NCBI RefSeq assembly: GCF_963675165.1
Contig: NC_087377.1
Coordinates: 16,906,518 to 16,970,517 of the forward strand
DNA length: 64,000 nt
From: Halichondria panicea
Taxonomy: Eukaryota > Porifera > Demospongiae > Suberitida > Halichondriidae
Direction of reading: 5' to 3'
The notes beneath the pieces were generated by a model, which worked only from the letters and a program-made list of their open reading frames with translations, did no database searches and was not told the DNA's origin. Both the position numbers and the translations under genes were made by a program. Positions 768-59,197 of the stretch are shown in pieces (within the stretch, counting starts at the first letter, position 1; every line of letters begins with the position of its first letter).

Positions 768-3689
768 ATGTCTGACTATCTCACAATAGCAGATCTAGGA
801 AAACTATACATAGCTACGTTTGATGCTCGAATCAAGTGGAGAAACTTCTTGCTGGTTCTTGAGGTATCCTCTGATACCATCGACAGCATTGGTACAAAAT
901 GGCAAAACAATCCTGATGACTGCTATCGTGAGGGTTTGAAAGAATGGCTGAAAGGTGGTGAGAGAAGCTGGGAAGATGTTGTCAAAGCTTTGTCAAGTCC
1001 TATTGTGGGCCACGTTCACATAGCCAGGACCATCGAGAAAGATCATCTACAGTCTACTGATGCAAGCAATCCTACTGATGTGAAGTCAGAGGGTAAGCAC
1101 TAGTTCAGCACAGGAATCATACAGTCATAATGCTTAGTTCGTTAGCTGCTATAATATTCACCCCCCCCCCACACACACACACACATATACACACACACCA
1201 CACACACACCCACCCACACACACACACACACACACACACACACACACACACACACACACACAATGTTCTACAGTTGACCAAAATCACCAGGATATCAATG
1301 ACGATTTGACTGTTTTCCTAGACCAACGACTTGGTAAAGGTGCATTTGGAGCAGTCTTCAAAGGCAGCTACAAGGGCGAGATTTGTGCAGTCAAAGTGCT
1401 GCTTCACGACGCTATGGAGATGCAGGCAAGTATTTCAATCGGCAAAAACGAAGAAGCTAGCGATGCAATTGATCGTGAAAGTGATTTTCTCAAGTCGTTC
1501 CAGCACCCAAACGTTGTTCAGTTTTTGTCGACAGCCAAGCACCCCAAATCAGGGAGTACAATCCTTGTTGTTGAGCTGATGGATTGCAATTTGAGATCCT
1601 ATTTCTCCAGCCTTGATGAAGAGTCCCTCACTAGCGAATGTGAAATTAGCCTCTCCAATGACATGGCTTGTGGTCTGGCCTACATTCACAGCAAGCAGAT
1701 TATCCACCGTGACCTCTGTGGTGATAACGTCTTGCTGAAGCTTACACGACCAGTGCCTGTTGCAAAGATATCCGACTTTGGCATGTCACGGCTATACGAT
1801 CCCTCCAAGCTTAGCCACACCCTCACAGCCATTGGTAACCGTATGGGGTATCTACCTCTCGAGGCTATTCGATTGGACAAGGATAATTACGATAATAGCT
1901 TGGATGTGTTCTCTCTTGGGGCAATTATGATGCAGATTGTTTGCAAGCTGAAGACGATCAAATCTGTGGAAGATCGATCATTCCATGTTGCCCAGATACC
2001 TCACACACACAGGTTGAGGAAGCTTATCGACAGTTGTTTGCAAGAAGACATGAGGAGGAGACCATCTGCCAGGGACATCTGTGAGTCAATGATAAGTATA
2101 TTATGTGTTTTATTCAGCTAACTGTAACCCTAACGAAAAAATCATATCCGTCTATTAATGTTGGTATCGATTTTAGATACTTACCTGACAACAAGCTCGG
2201 ACCCAGTGGAGGCAACAAAGAAGGAGTCAAAGGACACTGAACAAGTCAAGAAGGTGCATACATGTAGTGTGATAATGAGATTCCCACAGCAACAATAGTA
2301 TTGTACCTTAACATGCATGGATGCTGTCTCATGTGTTAAGCCGTAACTATACACATCCGTTTGACTGTGCCTATAATTATGTACTTCATTTAGTGAAGAT
2401 TATCTCGTTCTGTTGTAGAATTTCCACTAATGATATTCACGCCTGTGTTTTAGATTTCCACCAACGTTTCCCTGTACAGGCGCACAAGGAACAGACTGAG
2501 CACAAAGATGCTGAGCTGGTCAGGAGAGACGCCATCATTCAACAGCAGAGACAGGTGAGACAAAATGCACCATTATATTATTGCAGAGCTATAGTAGAAG
2601 CTTTGATCTCTTATAATCGTACTGTACATTCTATTAGACTGGTGGGCGTGGCCTCTTAAGCTAATTAGAGAAAGTGATTTAGTGTGCATGCAATTATTGC
2701 TACAAGTAACACTCACTTGTTAGTAGACACTATCCTAATTACACTCATTCATTATTCAGGGTCCCCCTCCCAGAGAGTTGAGACTTCCACTCACTCTGAA
2801 ATGGAGAAGAGGAAAAGACATGCCAATCAAGATGGGTTCCACGGTACAGAGTGTTGTTATCGGTGACACGGTGTATGTTGGTGGAGGGCGTGCAGGCAAT
2901 GATCGTGACAAGTGTACAGTGATGAAGCTCGAGCAAGATCAATGGACCAAACTACCAGAGTACACTGCCAAGTGGTTCGCTATGACATCACTCGCTAATC
3001 GACTAGTGCTGGTGGGAGGACAGGATCCAAGAAACAACAAACGCACCAATCAGCTTGCAGTTTTTGAAGCAGGGGAATGGACTCACCCGTACCAACCAAT
3101 GAACATTGCTCGTTGTTCCTCAGCAGCTGTCTCCTTCAACAACCACATCATTGTAGCTGGTGGGTATGATGATAAAGGACGTACCTCCTCTGTGGAGGTG
3201 TTGGATGTGGCATCAAGAAGATGGTACATTGCTCAGTCACTACCTAACCCACGATCAGATCTGAAATCGACTCTCATAGGAAACACCCTCTTCCTAATGG
3301 GAGGGTGGGATCACACTGTGAGTAGTTCAACCAAGACAGTGCATCACGCCGACCTCGATGAACTCATTGCAAATGCCCTTTCCAACATGGACACACCCAC
3401 TCTCTGGCAGACCTTACAGGAAGTACCACTCGAGTGGTCAGCTCCTCTCAGTATTGGGAGGTCACTATTAGCCGTTGGTGGAGCGGACGACAGATTCAAC
3501 CCAAGTTCATCGATCCACCTCTACCAGCCTGACACCAGGAGGTGGGTGAAAGTGGGAGACCTGCCTACTGGACGATACTACTGCACATGCTCAGTACTTC
3601 CTAGTGGAGAGGTCATTGTAGCCGGAGGACAGACATATTCATTTGTTTATATTCAAACTGTTGATTTCTTCTTTATAAGTGCTAATTAG
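768..3689 (+). CDS. Unit A: Death - TKL-like kinase - coiled coil - Kelch protein
   Basis: Five exons fit splice motifs and phase: 768-1092, 1274-2080, 2177-2253, 2480-2554 and 2760-3689, giving about 737 residues. Exon 1 is a Death-fold domain (hydrophobic helices, W at KEWLKG and SWEDV). Exon 2 is a complete kinase domain: glycine loop LGKGAFGAV, lysine in CAVK, catalytic HRDLCGDN, and DFGMSR. The usual APE triplet reads PLEA. A Lys/Glu-rich linker and a 25-residue coiled coil (QAHKEQ to QQQRQ region) follow. The last exon holds six Kelch blades, each with a Gly-Gly. There is no signal peptide or membrane segment, so a cytoplasmic signalling role is inferred: Death for homotypic contacts, Kelch for ligand recognition. 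All key kinase residues are present. A CA-rich microsatellite lies in intron 1. This is the cleanest Death-type unit with G. Confidence 0.85.
1160..1262 (+). repeat. (CA)n microsatellite in intron 1 of unit A
   Basis: An imperfect CA/CCA run occupies most of intron 1, ending 10 bp before the kinase-exon acceptor. The equivalent intron of B (6965-7074) and of G (56396-56468) holds the same repeat at a different length, so it is an inherited and length-variable part of the unit. Confidence 0.95.
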
Positions 3690-3879
3690 TTATTTTGTTA
3701 ATTGTTTCTCTTTAATTGTGCGATGAGTTTATAACGATATTGTTTATCATGTTGAGAAAATTAAGTTGCAACAGAATTTTATCACATAATTATAGTTATT
3801 ATGATGACATGAAGTGGTACATACATAATTACATTGCCAGAAAATAGTACAAAAACAGACAAAATAATATTTAACAGTC

Positions 3880-58900: not shown

Positions 58901-59197
58901 GACACACCCACTCCCTGGCAGACCTTACAGGAAGTACCACTCGAGTTCTCAGCTCCTCTCAGTATTGGGAGGTCACTATTAGCCGTTGGTGGATGGGACG
59001 GAGACAACTCAAGTTCATCGATCTACCTCTACCAGCCTGACACCAGGAGGTGGGTGAAAGTGGGAGACCTGCCTACTGCACGAGAGTGCTGCACATGCTC
59101 AGTACTTCCTAGTGGAGAAGTCATTGTAGCTGGAGGACAGACAGCAATTAATCATTATATTCGAACTGTTGATTTCTTCTCTATAAGTGCTAATTAG
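55977..59197 (+). CDS. Unit G: Death - TKL-like kinase - extended linker - Kelch protein
   Basis: Five exons: 55977-56301, 56481-57278, 57408-57763, 58000-58074 and 58280-59197, giving about 823 residues. The Death domain is intact. Kinase motifs: LLGKGAFGAV, CAVK, HRDLCGDN, DFGMSR; the activation segment is unusual (CDFSELSHTL...DHRKGYLPLEAPQ) and three residues shorter than in A. The linker exon is 356 bp against 77 bp in A, because its core (SLTNDSGTVEATKRESKDTQ, then LTSGSDPVEATKKESKDTK) is duplicated around a Gln/Glu-rich helical stretch. Six Kelch blades are present, the fifth loop shortened (GGWDGDN). The USF-like gene lies head-to-head upstream. This appears to be a complete gene. Confidence 0.85.
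56396..56468 (+). repeat. (CA)n microsatellite in intron 1 of unit G
   Basis: A CA run with one GTGA interruption, at the same position as in units A and B. Confidence 0.97.

Follow-up and report, generated by a model that had tools for sequence, protein, structure and literature searches.

Hypervariable codons on one face of a modelled Kelch propeller in a candidate receptor family of the sponge Halichondria panicea

Introduction

The 64,000-nucleotide stretch of the Halichondria panicea genome analysed here (hereafter the window; contig C1:16906518-16970517 of a 131-Mb, 39-contig genome) carries seven genes on the + strand; the last exon recognised in each is a Kelch exon of 304-311 codons with its own stop. 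This raises the question as to why these exons stay alike over most of their length while a few codons differ in nearly every copy. The initial annotation of the window placed these codons on one face of the Kelch propeller and proposed that they form a diversifying recognition surface, carried by receptors of a Death/kinase/Kelch design that matched no described system. On the evidence assembled below, the Kelch exon is probably the variable sensor of a large multi-domain, and probably intracellular, receptor family, in which the sensor recombines as a cassette among at least three different heads and would be directed at a fast-changing ligand.

The Kelch exon family

In each of the seven window copies a conserved TTCAG acceptor is followed by an uninterrupted reading frame that ends at the exon's own stop. 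The copies are listed here with their gene type, which is defined by the upstream head as explained further below:

2760..3689, + strand: Kelch exon copy A, type-1 gene; open after the TTCAG acceptor, with a Pfam Kelch match
8526..9449, + strand: Kelch exon copy B, type-1 gene
14100..15032, + strand: Kelch exon copy C, type-2 gene
20575..21510, + strand: Kelch exon copy D, type-2 gene; 99% identical to locus L033, which has a type-1 kinase upstream
28648..29580, + strand: Kelch exon copy E, type-1 gene without kinase N-lobe; aligned codons DNA-identical to L029 in the opposite array
50543..51457, + strand: Kelch exon copy F, type-2 gene; closing TVDFF strand out of frame after an early stop
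58280..59197, + strand: Kelch exon copy G, type-1 gene

A genome-wide search scored 128 full-length Kelch matches out of 451 candidates, and the count of at least 128 exons is for this reason a lower bound; an internal stop is absent from 127 of the 128. They form arrays at 15.48-16.13 Mb (- strand) and 16.71-17.39 Mb (+ strand) of C1, with further exons near 11.0 Mb of the same contig and on contigs C6 and C28. From the 128, 119 exons were retrieved and eight that are DNA-identical over the aligned codons were collapsed, which leaves 111 distinct copies; three diverged paralogues (L123, L125 and L126) were excluded from the variability and selection tests, L124 and L127-L130 were not included in the analyses, and the rate tests are restricted to 278 core codons by exclusion of the ragged ends (codons 1-12 and 291-310).

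Several DNA-identical Kelch exons, for instance L042, L075 and L105, are common to the two oppositely oriented C1 arrays, which points to a recent duplication of segments between the arms or to haplotypes mixed in the assembly. Extra Kelch tails (TVDFF…) also lie about 90 and 150 bases past the stops of genes B and E (window positions 9540 and 29726), and several other copies have short tail matches behind them.

A constant propeller with a variable face

Across the 111 copies the median amino-acid entropy per codon is 0.25 bit, with 217 of 310 codons below 0.5 bit; 24 codons exceed 2 bits, or 18 of 278 once the ragged ends are removed. The 18 codons are 27, 44, 46, 51, 71, 88, 119, 136, 167, 183, 187-189, 224, 225, 241, 245 and 273. 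These 18 hypervariable positions define 100 different residue signatures among the 111 copies, a typical pair differing at 14 of the 18, and they are enriched in Arg (frequency 0.13, against 0.055 at conserved codons), Tyr (0.074 against 0.027), Phe (0.057 against 0.013) and Trp (0.043 against 0.025). When sites are ranked for variability in the 96 copies of the C1 arrays and, apart from these, in the 15 copies of the separate C6/C28 array, the two top-20 sets have 14 sites in common. The hypervariable positions adjoin the Arg of the d-a loop or come after the Gly-Gly of the b-c loop, and the window copies bear out in detail what the initial annotation had listed: the two codons after the sixth-blade Arg read TAC TAC, TAC CAC, TCC TGT, TAC AGC, TAT TGC, TGC CGC and GAG TGC in copies A to G, and the residues listed for the positions behind the Gly-Gly pairs are likewise confirmed in all seven, the third pair of copy C being Asp-Gly and not Gly-Gly.

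The window Kelch exon matches Pfam Kelch_1 (7e-28). AlphaFold2, run on the seven window sequences with copy C as the first sequence of the alignment, predicts a six-blade propeller with a mean predicted local distance difference test score (pLDDT) of 83.4 and a predicted template-modelling score (pTM) of 0.86. The best Foldseek matches of this model in the PDB include KLHL20, KLHL3, designed Kelch proteins and Keap1 (E at or below 1e-14 for KLHL20, KLHL3 and Keap1), and near the top of a viral fold library stand Kelch, galactose-oxidase-like or unnamed proteins. In an up-down propeller the d-a and b-c loops lie on one face. Hypervariable sites occupy 18 of the 115 positions in these loops and none of the 162 positions elsewhere (Fisher p = 6e-8), and sites found to be positively selected at a posterior above 0.99 occupy 34 of the 115 against 3 of the 162 (codons 199, 206 and 247); the loops of the opposite face are conserved, with a mean entropy of 0.23-0.33 bit. 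The sites are thus not scattered over the modelled structure, and the earlier claim of a single variable face holds: the hypervariable sites are confined to one face of a six-blade propeller that is modelled with confidence. The face is defined by strand order and not by measured geometry, the strands having been read manually off the DSSP line of the AlphaFold2 model. We take the variable sites near the d-a Arg and after Gly-Gly to correspond, by motif and not by computation, to the pocket residues of Keap1.

Selection at the variable codons

A grid codon model was applied to the 278 core codons. Replacement exceeds synonymous change at a posterior above 0.99 in 18/18 hypervariable, 16/16 intermediate and 4/244 conserved codons (14/244 at a posterior above 0.95), a scan that proceeds site by site and does not depend on the site classes. 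The mean replacement rate (beta), a nominal figure whose size is discussed below, is 21 at hypervariable, 6.6 at intermediate and 0.65 at conserved codons, and the best common synonymous rate (alpha) is 1.0 in all three classes. Replacement at the hypervariable codons thus runs at about 20 times the synonymous rate, which is what a diversifying surface had been expected to display, and site-wise dN/dS across the Kelch copies of the genome is far above background.

Counts that use no tree agree with the model. The ratio of replacement to synonymous differences (pN/pS) over all 6105 pairs is 3.45 at hypervariable codons and 0.40 at conserved codons far from them, and over 41 independent pairs 3.51 and 0.40, a contrast inflated to some degree by site classes that were set by entropy on the same data. 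Among 28 pairs that are 95.5-98.5% identical, pN/pS at hypervariable sites is 4.5 to 8. With local trees, 17 of the 18 sites have a likelihood-ratio test statistic (LRT) above 10, and at LRT above 10.8 the signal is recovered in 16 of 18 sites within type-1 genes and 14 of 18 within type-2 genes. The hypervariable codons are under diversifying selection.

In a PHI (pairwise homoplasy index)-type recombination test, 189 of 2000 permutations fell at or below the observed value, a result that is no more than suggestive; linkage within 60 nt is clearer (3 of 2000 at or above the observed value). Trees of the left and right halves of the exon have 12 of 108 splits in common and those of interleaved halves 19 of 108; with support above 0.9 at only 23 of 108 nodes, the trees are poorly resolved in any case.

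One cassette behind several heads

When each exon is given the head whose match lies closest upstream, on its own strand and within 5.5 kb, an assignment by position and not from transcripts, 62 of the 111 Kelch exons follow a type-1 kinase, 36 a type-2 kinase and 10 neither of these but a 385-aa open frame; three have no type. Type 1 consists of a Death-like exon and a kinase, type 2 of a coiled coil and a kinase, and type 3 of the 385-aa head, which resembles a CARD. In all seven window units a linker exon (…AELVRRDAIIQQQRQ) precedes an intron of about 205 nt and then the Kelch exon; its boundaries were placed by eye, from the splice signals, in three genes:

2480..2554, + strand: linker exon of gene A (…AELVRRDAIIQQQRQ), followed by the intron of about 205 nt
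8246..8320, + strand: linker exon of gene B
58000..58074, + strand: linker exon of gene G

Similarity between Kelch exons takes no account of the head in front of them. On C1 the mean Kelch identity within types is 0.922 (type 1), 0.928 (type 2) and 0.927 (type 3; 0.921 without near-identical pairs), and between types 0.919-0.925. Nearest neighbours below 97% identity are of the same type in 33 of 70 cases, with 31.0 expected. The type-2 copy D and the type-1 locus L033 have Kelch exons that are 99.0% identical on different kinases; they differ at six codons, two of them hypervariable, and one of these two, codon 88, is changed at all three bases. Between genes of different types, homology sets in abruptly some 500 bases ahead of the Kelch exon and tails off roughly 1.3 kb past the start of that exon. 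Since Kelch similarity ignores head type and the shared sequence begins near -500, the evolving unit is the 3' cassette and not the gene, and Kelch exon and linker exon constitute one exchangeable 3' cassette behind at least three different heads.

In 22 genes found by motif search, the intron that precedes the Kelch exon shows an average difference of only 1.3%. A profile of 24 aligned copies, from which two of the 26 long copies were excluded because they had no start motif, puts the difference in this intron at 0.6-3.1% among type-1 genes and at 9-19% among the five type-2 copies, so that homogenisation of the cassette is uneven.

The signalling heads

The head exons recognised in the window, together with the reference type-3 head, are:

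768..1061, + strand: Death-like exon, type-1 gene A (Pfam Death E 0.07; a longer stretch has no match)
55977..56270, + strand: Death-like exon, type-1 gene G (Pfam Death E 0.03; a longer stretch 0.077)
1138..2118, + strand: type-1 kinase open frame, gene A (Pfam Pkinase 2e-37; AVK, HRDL and DFG motifs)
6930..7811, + strand: type-1 kinase open frame, gene B (frame change before the end of the C-lobe; kinase region 6930-8064)
27394..28008, + strand: type-1 kinase, gene E, C-lobe part only
56396..57292, + strand: type-1 kinase, gene G
11705..12439, + strand: type-2 kinase, gene C (Pfam Pkinase 1e-31)
17999..18607, + strand: type-2 kinase, gene D
48289..48897, + strand: type-2 kinase, gene F
13027..13356, + strand: coiled-coil-like exon, type-2 gene C (LVQKDNQLEQ repeats, read from the sequence and not computed)
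L014:2782-3936, - strand: type-3 head, 385-aa open frame (no Pfam match)

Compared over 20 long loci and the window, pN/pS of the heads is 0.35 for the type-1 kinase (19 sequences), 0.11 for the type-2 kinase (6) and 0.40 for the Death-like exon (17, including two rows in which a stop letter was retained), and no head site exceeds 2 bits; the Kelch exons of the same loci (26 sequences) have a pN/pS of 1.05 and 15 such sites among 278. The kinase and Death-like exons are under purifying selection. Synonymous divergence is lower in the Kelch exon (0.074) than in the type-1 kinase (0.158), but higher than in the type-2 kinase (0.054). Neither kinase type has lost the HRD or DFG motif in the window genes, and the lysine motif is missing from the truncated gene E alone.

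The type-2 kinase of gene C matches plant receptor kinases and IRAK4 in the PDB with similar scores, behind a better-scoring EGFR-labelled entry, and this same entry is the lone PDB match of the type-1 kinase (1e-17). Outside the Kelch arrays, contigs C3 and C11 carry clusters of kinases, dozens in all, with about 45-52% identity to the type-2 kinase. For the Death-like exon, Pfam Death is found at E 0.03-0.09 in three of four scanned sequences and not in the fourth; its family profile has the FADD death domain as best PDB match (E 0.002), and AlphaFold2 gave no usable model (pLDDT 58). One family member on C28 has an additional, clear Death domain (2e-17) ahead of the Death-like exon, and no Death domain was found among the type-2 exons scanned. 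The Death/kinase/Kelch design proposed at the outset is accordingly the commonest gene type and also only one of at least three that carry the same Kelch cassette, with a Death domain that is weakly recognisable.

The likeness of part of the type-3 head to a CARD is one seen by eye; this part has no Pfam match, and its PDB matches are at chance level. The second part of this head (residues ~136-376) recurs at dozens of places on C5, C9, C11 and elsewhere, and is possibly an unnamed signalling domain.

Other features of the window

Between genes D and E, an open frame at 23147-23656 encodes a RAG1 importin-binding-like domain (Pfam 4e-9). Fourteen further genome matches are listed, three of them with a stop and the window copy not among them; those at C1:11029280 and C1:16024559 lie in or beside Kelch arrays, and the frame is likely a mobile element. 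At 35933-37201 a 99-base tandem unit in 12.6 copies is open for 360 codons by chance. An open frame on the - strand at 39712-40518 has a C-terminal PHD finger and contains a 66-base tandem repeat (40121-40339) that encodes TSPLRVKDTLDSD repeats. An Rfam scan of the window gave no match at gathering score.

Comparison with known systems

The HNWD group of fungal NOD-like receptors (NLRs), exemplified by het-d and het-e of Podospora anserina, carries a WD40 propeller whose repeats undergo concerted evolution, and in each repeat four codon positions on the interaction surface are under diversifying selection (PMC12222747, PMC4986451). The Kelch family is like it in having a beta-propeller sensor, a homogenised scaffold and a variable surface that is under diversifying selection. 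HNWD genes are fungal and possess a NACHT core, a HET head and WD40 repeats that vary in number inside one gene, whereas the Kelch family has six Kelch blades, exchanges a whole exon cassette between many genes and bears kinase heads. The selected surface is present, but the propeller is Kelch and not WD40, and no NACHT or NB-ARC was detected in the exons scanned with Pfam, a scan that did not extend to every base of each gene. The Kelch family is not a member of HNWD; the fungal HNWD NLRs are its closest described analogue in mechanism, different in fold, heads and lineage.

By comparison with BTB-Kelch (KLHL) proteins and Keap1, the Kelch fold is shared, but kinase or other heads stand in place of BTB/BACK and the family is a hypervariable array. 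No BTB or BACK was found in the exons scanned, the upstream exons being kinase, Death-like or 385-aa head, although not every base was scanned. The Keap1 pocket residues named in PMC6891428 include Ser363, Arg415, Ser508, Tyr525, Tyr572 and Ser602. IRAK/Pelle and plant receptor-like kinases resemble the family in the order of a Death-like domain and a tyrosine kinase-like (TKL-type) kinase and in the type-2 matches to IRAK4 and plant receptor kinases; the C-terminal Kelch sensor sets it apart, and no link to TIR or MyD88 has been shown.

Large invertebrate receptor repertoires are described for sponges in two papers on NLR and scavenger receptor cysteine-rich (SRCR) expansions (PMC10855680, PMC12909245); these receptors resemble the Kelch family in the size of the repertoire and differ in their domains. 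The paper on D. avara NLRs does not use the word Kelch in its main text. A sponge study reports 'Kelch motif containing' genes that are down-regulated after microbial challenge (PMC6208332), with no sequence to compare. No Kelch-kinase or Kelch-Death receptor family appears among the matches listed in the open-access literature, a coverage outside which most subscription papers and preprints fall, so that absence from print is not shown. The earlier statement that no described system matches is hence uncontradicted in that literature as regards this architecture; as regards mechanism, the WD40 propellers of HNWD NLRs are a described analogue. What is distinctive relative to known systems is the hypervariable cassette common to several heads.

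What the variable face may recognise

The pocket face differs in nearly every copy, the scaffold is constant and the heads are constrained, which together suggest a recognition receptor whose partner keeps changing. The sequences are best explained by recognition of a ligand that changes fast, from which immune or self recognition may be inferred. On this reading the scaffold is kept constant and homogenised by exchange between copies, the residues at the ligand-pocket end of each blade (the d-a loop and the residues after Gly-Gly in the b-c loop) are driven apart by diversifying selection, and recombination of sensor and linker exon between genes lets at least three signalling heads display one common pool of specificities. 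Head, linker and Kelch exons would be spliced together; ligand binding by the variable face may then release or cluster the head through Death-like or coiled-coil association, switching on phosphorylation by the TKL-type kinase or the recruitment of adaptors by the CARD-resembling head, with a defence or incompatibility response as the presumed outcome. A fast-changing partner, whether microbial or viral molecules or polymorphic self, would sustain the selection.

Several observations count against the Kelch exon being such a sensor. The size of beta is uncertain and its values are not literal, because no single tree is correct where copies recombine. Among the 14 pairs that are closest (at least 98.5% identical) the contrast is absent: pN/pS is 1.52 at hypervariable sites, on ten differences, while conserved codons give 2.43 and 0.87, all from few differences. 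The C6/C28 subset taken alone (15 sequences, low power) has 0 sites at LRT above 10.8. On the side of the heads, the types are assigned from position, the Death-like domain assignment in the window genes is weak, and in the assembly the kinase looks damaged in two of the four type-1 window genes (the frame change of B and the missing N-lobe of E), their Kelch exons being still open. Gene F is without its closing strand, the TVDFF tail lying out of frame behind the early stop at 51457. No signal peptide is evident by eye, and the protein is on that account probably cytosolic.

Sequence from one genome does not separate pathogen recognition from allorecognition. That the Kelch surface reads the polymorphic self of other individuals, with the heads triggering incompatibility, is nevertheless rather unlikely: a diversifying propeller joined to an incompatibility head is described for Podospora het-d and het-e (PMC12222747, PMC4986451), but at least 128 copies, 127 of 128 without an internal stop, are in our opinion many for the receiver of a self marker.

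Somewhat less likely again is a diversification of substrate adaptors, in which each Kelch domain would bring its kinase to an endogenous substrate of its own that changes slowly, by subfunctionalisation and not through an arms race. KLHL Kelch domains do select their substrates through the same face, and the missing pocket excess in the very closest pairs would suit this explanation. It fits poorly with replacement at about 20 times the synonymous rate, with the pocket pN/pS of 4.5-8 in copies 95.5-98.5% identical, and with a cassette that is also found on heads in which no kinase was detected.

Targeted mutation of a diversity-generating-retroelement-like or deaminase-like kind, varying the codons without selection, was first suggested by sites such as 27, 46 and 245, where codon positions 1 and 2 are near saturation and position 3 is almost frozen. 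It is now highly improbable and was dropped. The ratio of replacement rates at position 3 and at positions 1 and 2 (rho), fitted jointly over the 18 hypervariable sites, is best at 1.0, as under uniform mutation; single sites depart in both directions, 27, 44, 46 and 51 favouring rho below 1 (LRT above 11) and 183, 188 and 225 the opposite. The synonymous rate at hypervariable codons equals the gene mean (alpha = 1), and since it is not raised, targeted hypermutation is disfavoured. Adenine-directed mutagenesis is ill-fitting because the nearly fixed third bases include A, nearly invariant at codons 189 and 247. As to a diversity-generating retroelement, the fold is Kelch and not C-type lectin-like or Ig and the third-position A is kept at these two codons; no search for a template repeat or reverse transcriptase was made. 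A small doubt about setting hypermutation aside comes from the best rho in the other classes, which is higher than at the hypervariable sites (1.7 in conserved and 3, the grid edge, in intermediate codons).

Relaxed constraint or pseudogene decay, to which loops with their general tolerance of change might seem open, is the least probable of all, as it is contradicted by the excess of replacement over synonymous change, by 127 of 128 copies without internal stops and by the conserved loops of the opposite face (0.23-0.33 bit).

Significance

With recognition of a fast-changing ligand as the preferred reading, the chances are about even that the family represents an undescribed class of animal receptor, in which the hypervariable Kelch cassettes of the whole genome form one pool and pass in the germ line between several heads, namely Death-like kinase, coiled-coil kinase and CARD-resembling adaptor. 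How animals without antibodies make many recognition specificities is a long-standing question, and the solution of a propeller with a variable face, known from fungal incompatibility NLRs, would have a counterpart here with a different propeller and kinase outputs. As the pocket positions are few and can be named, the idea is directly testable by binding screens and population sequencing. If it is true, a new specificity could be tried on different outputs, and the sponge cassette would correspond, in the germ line, to a variable region common to several receptor classes.

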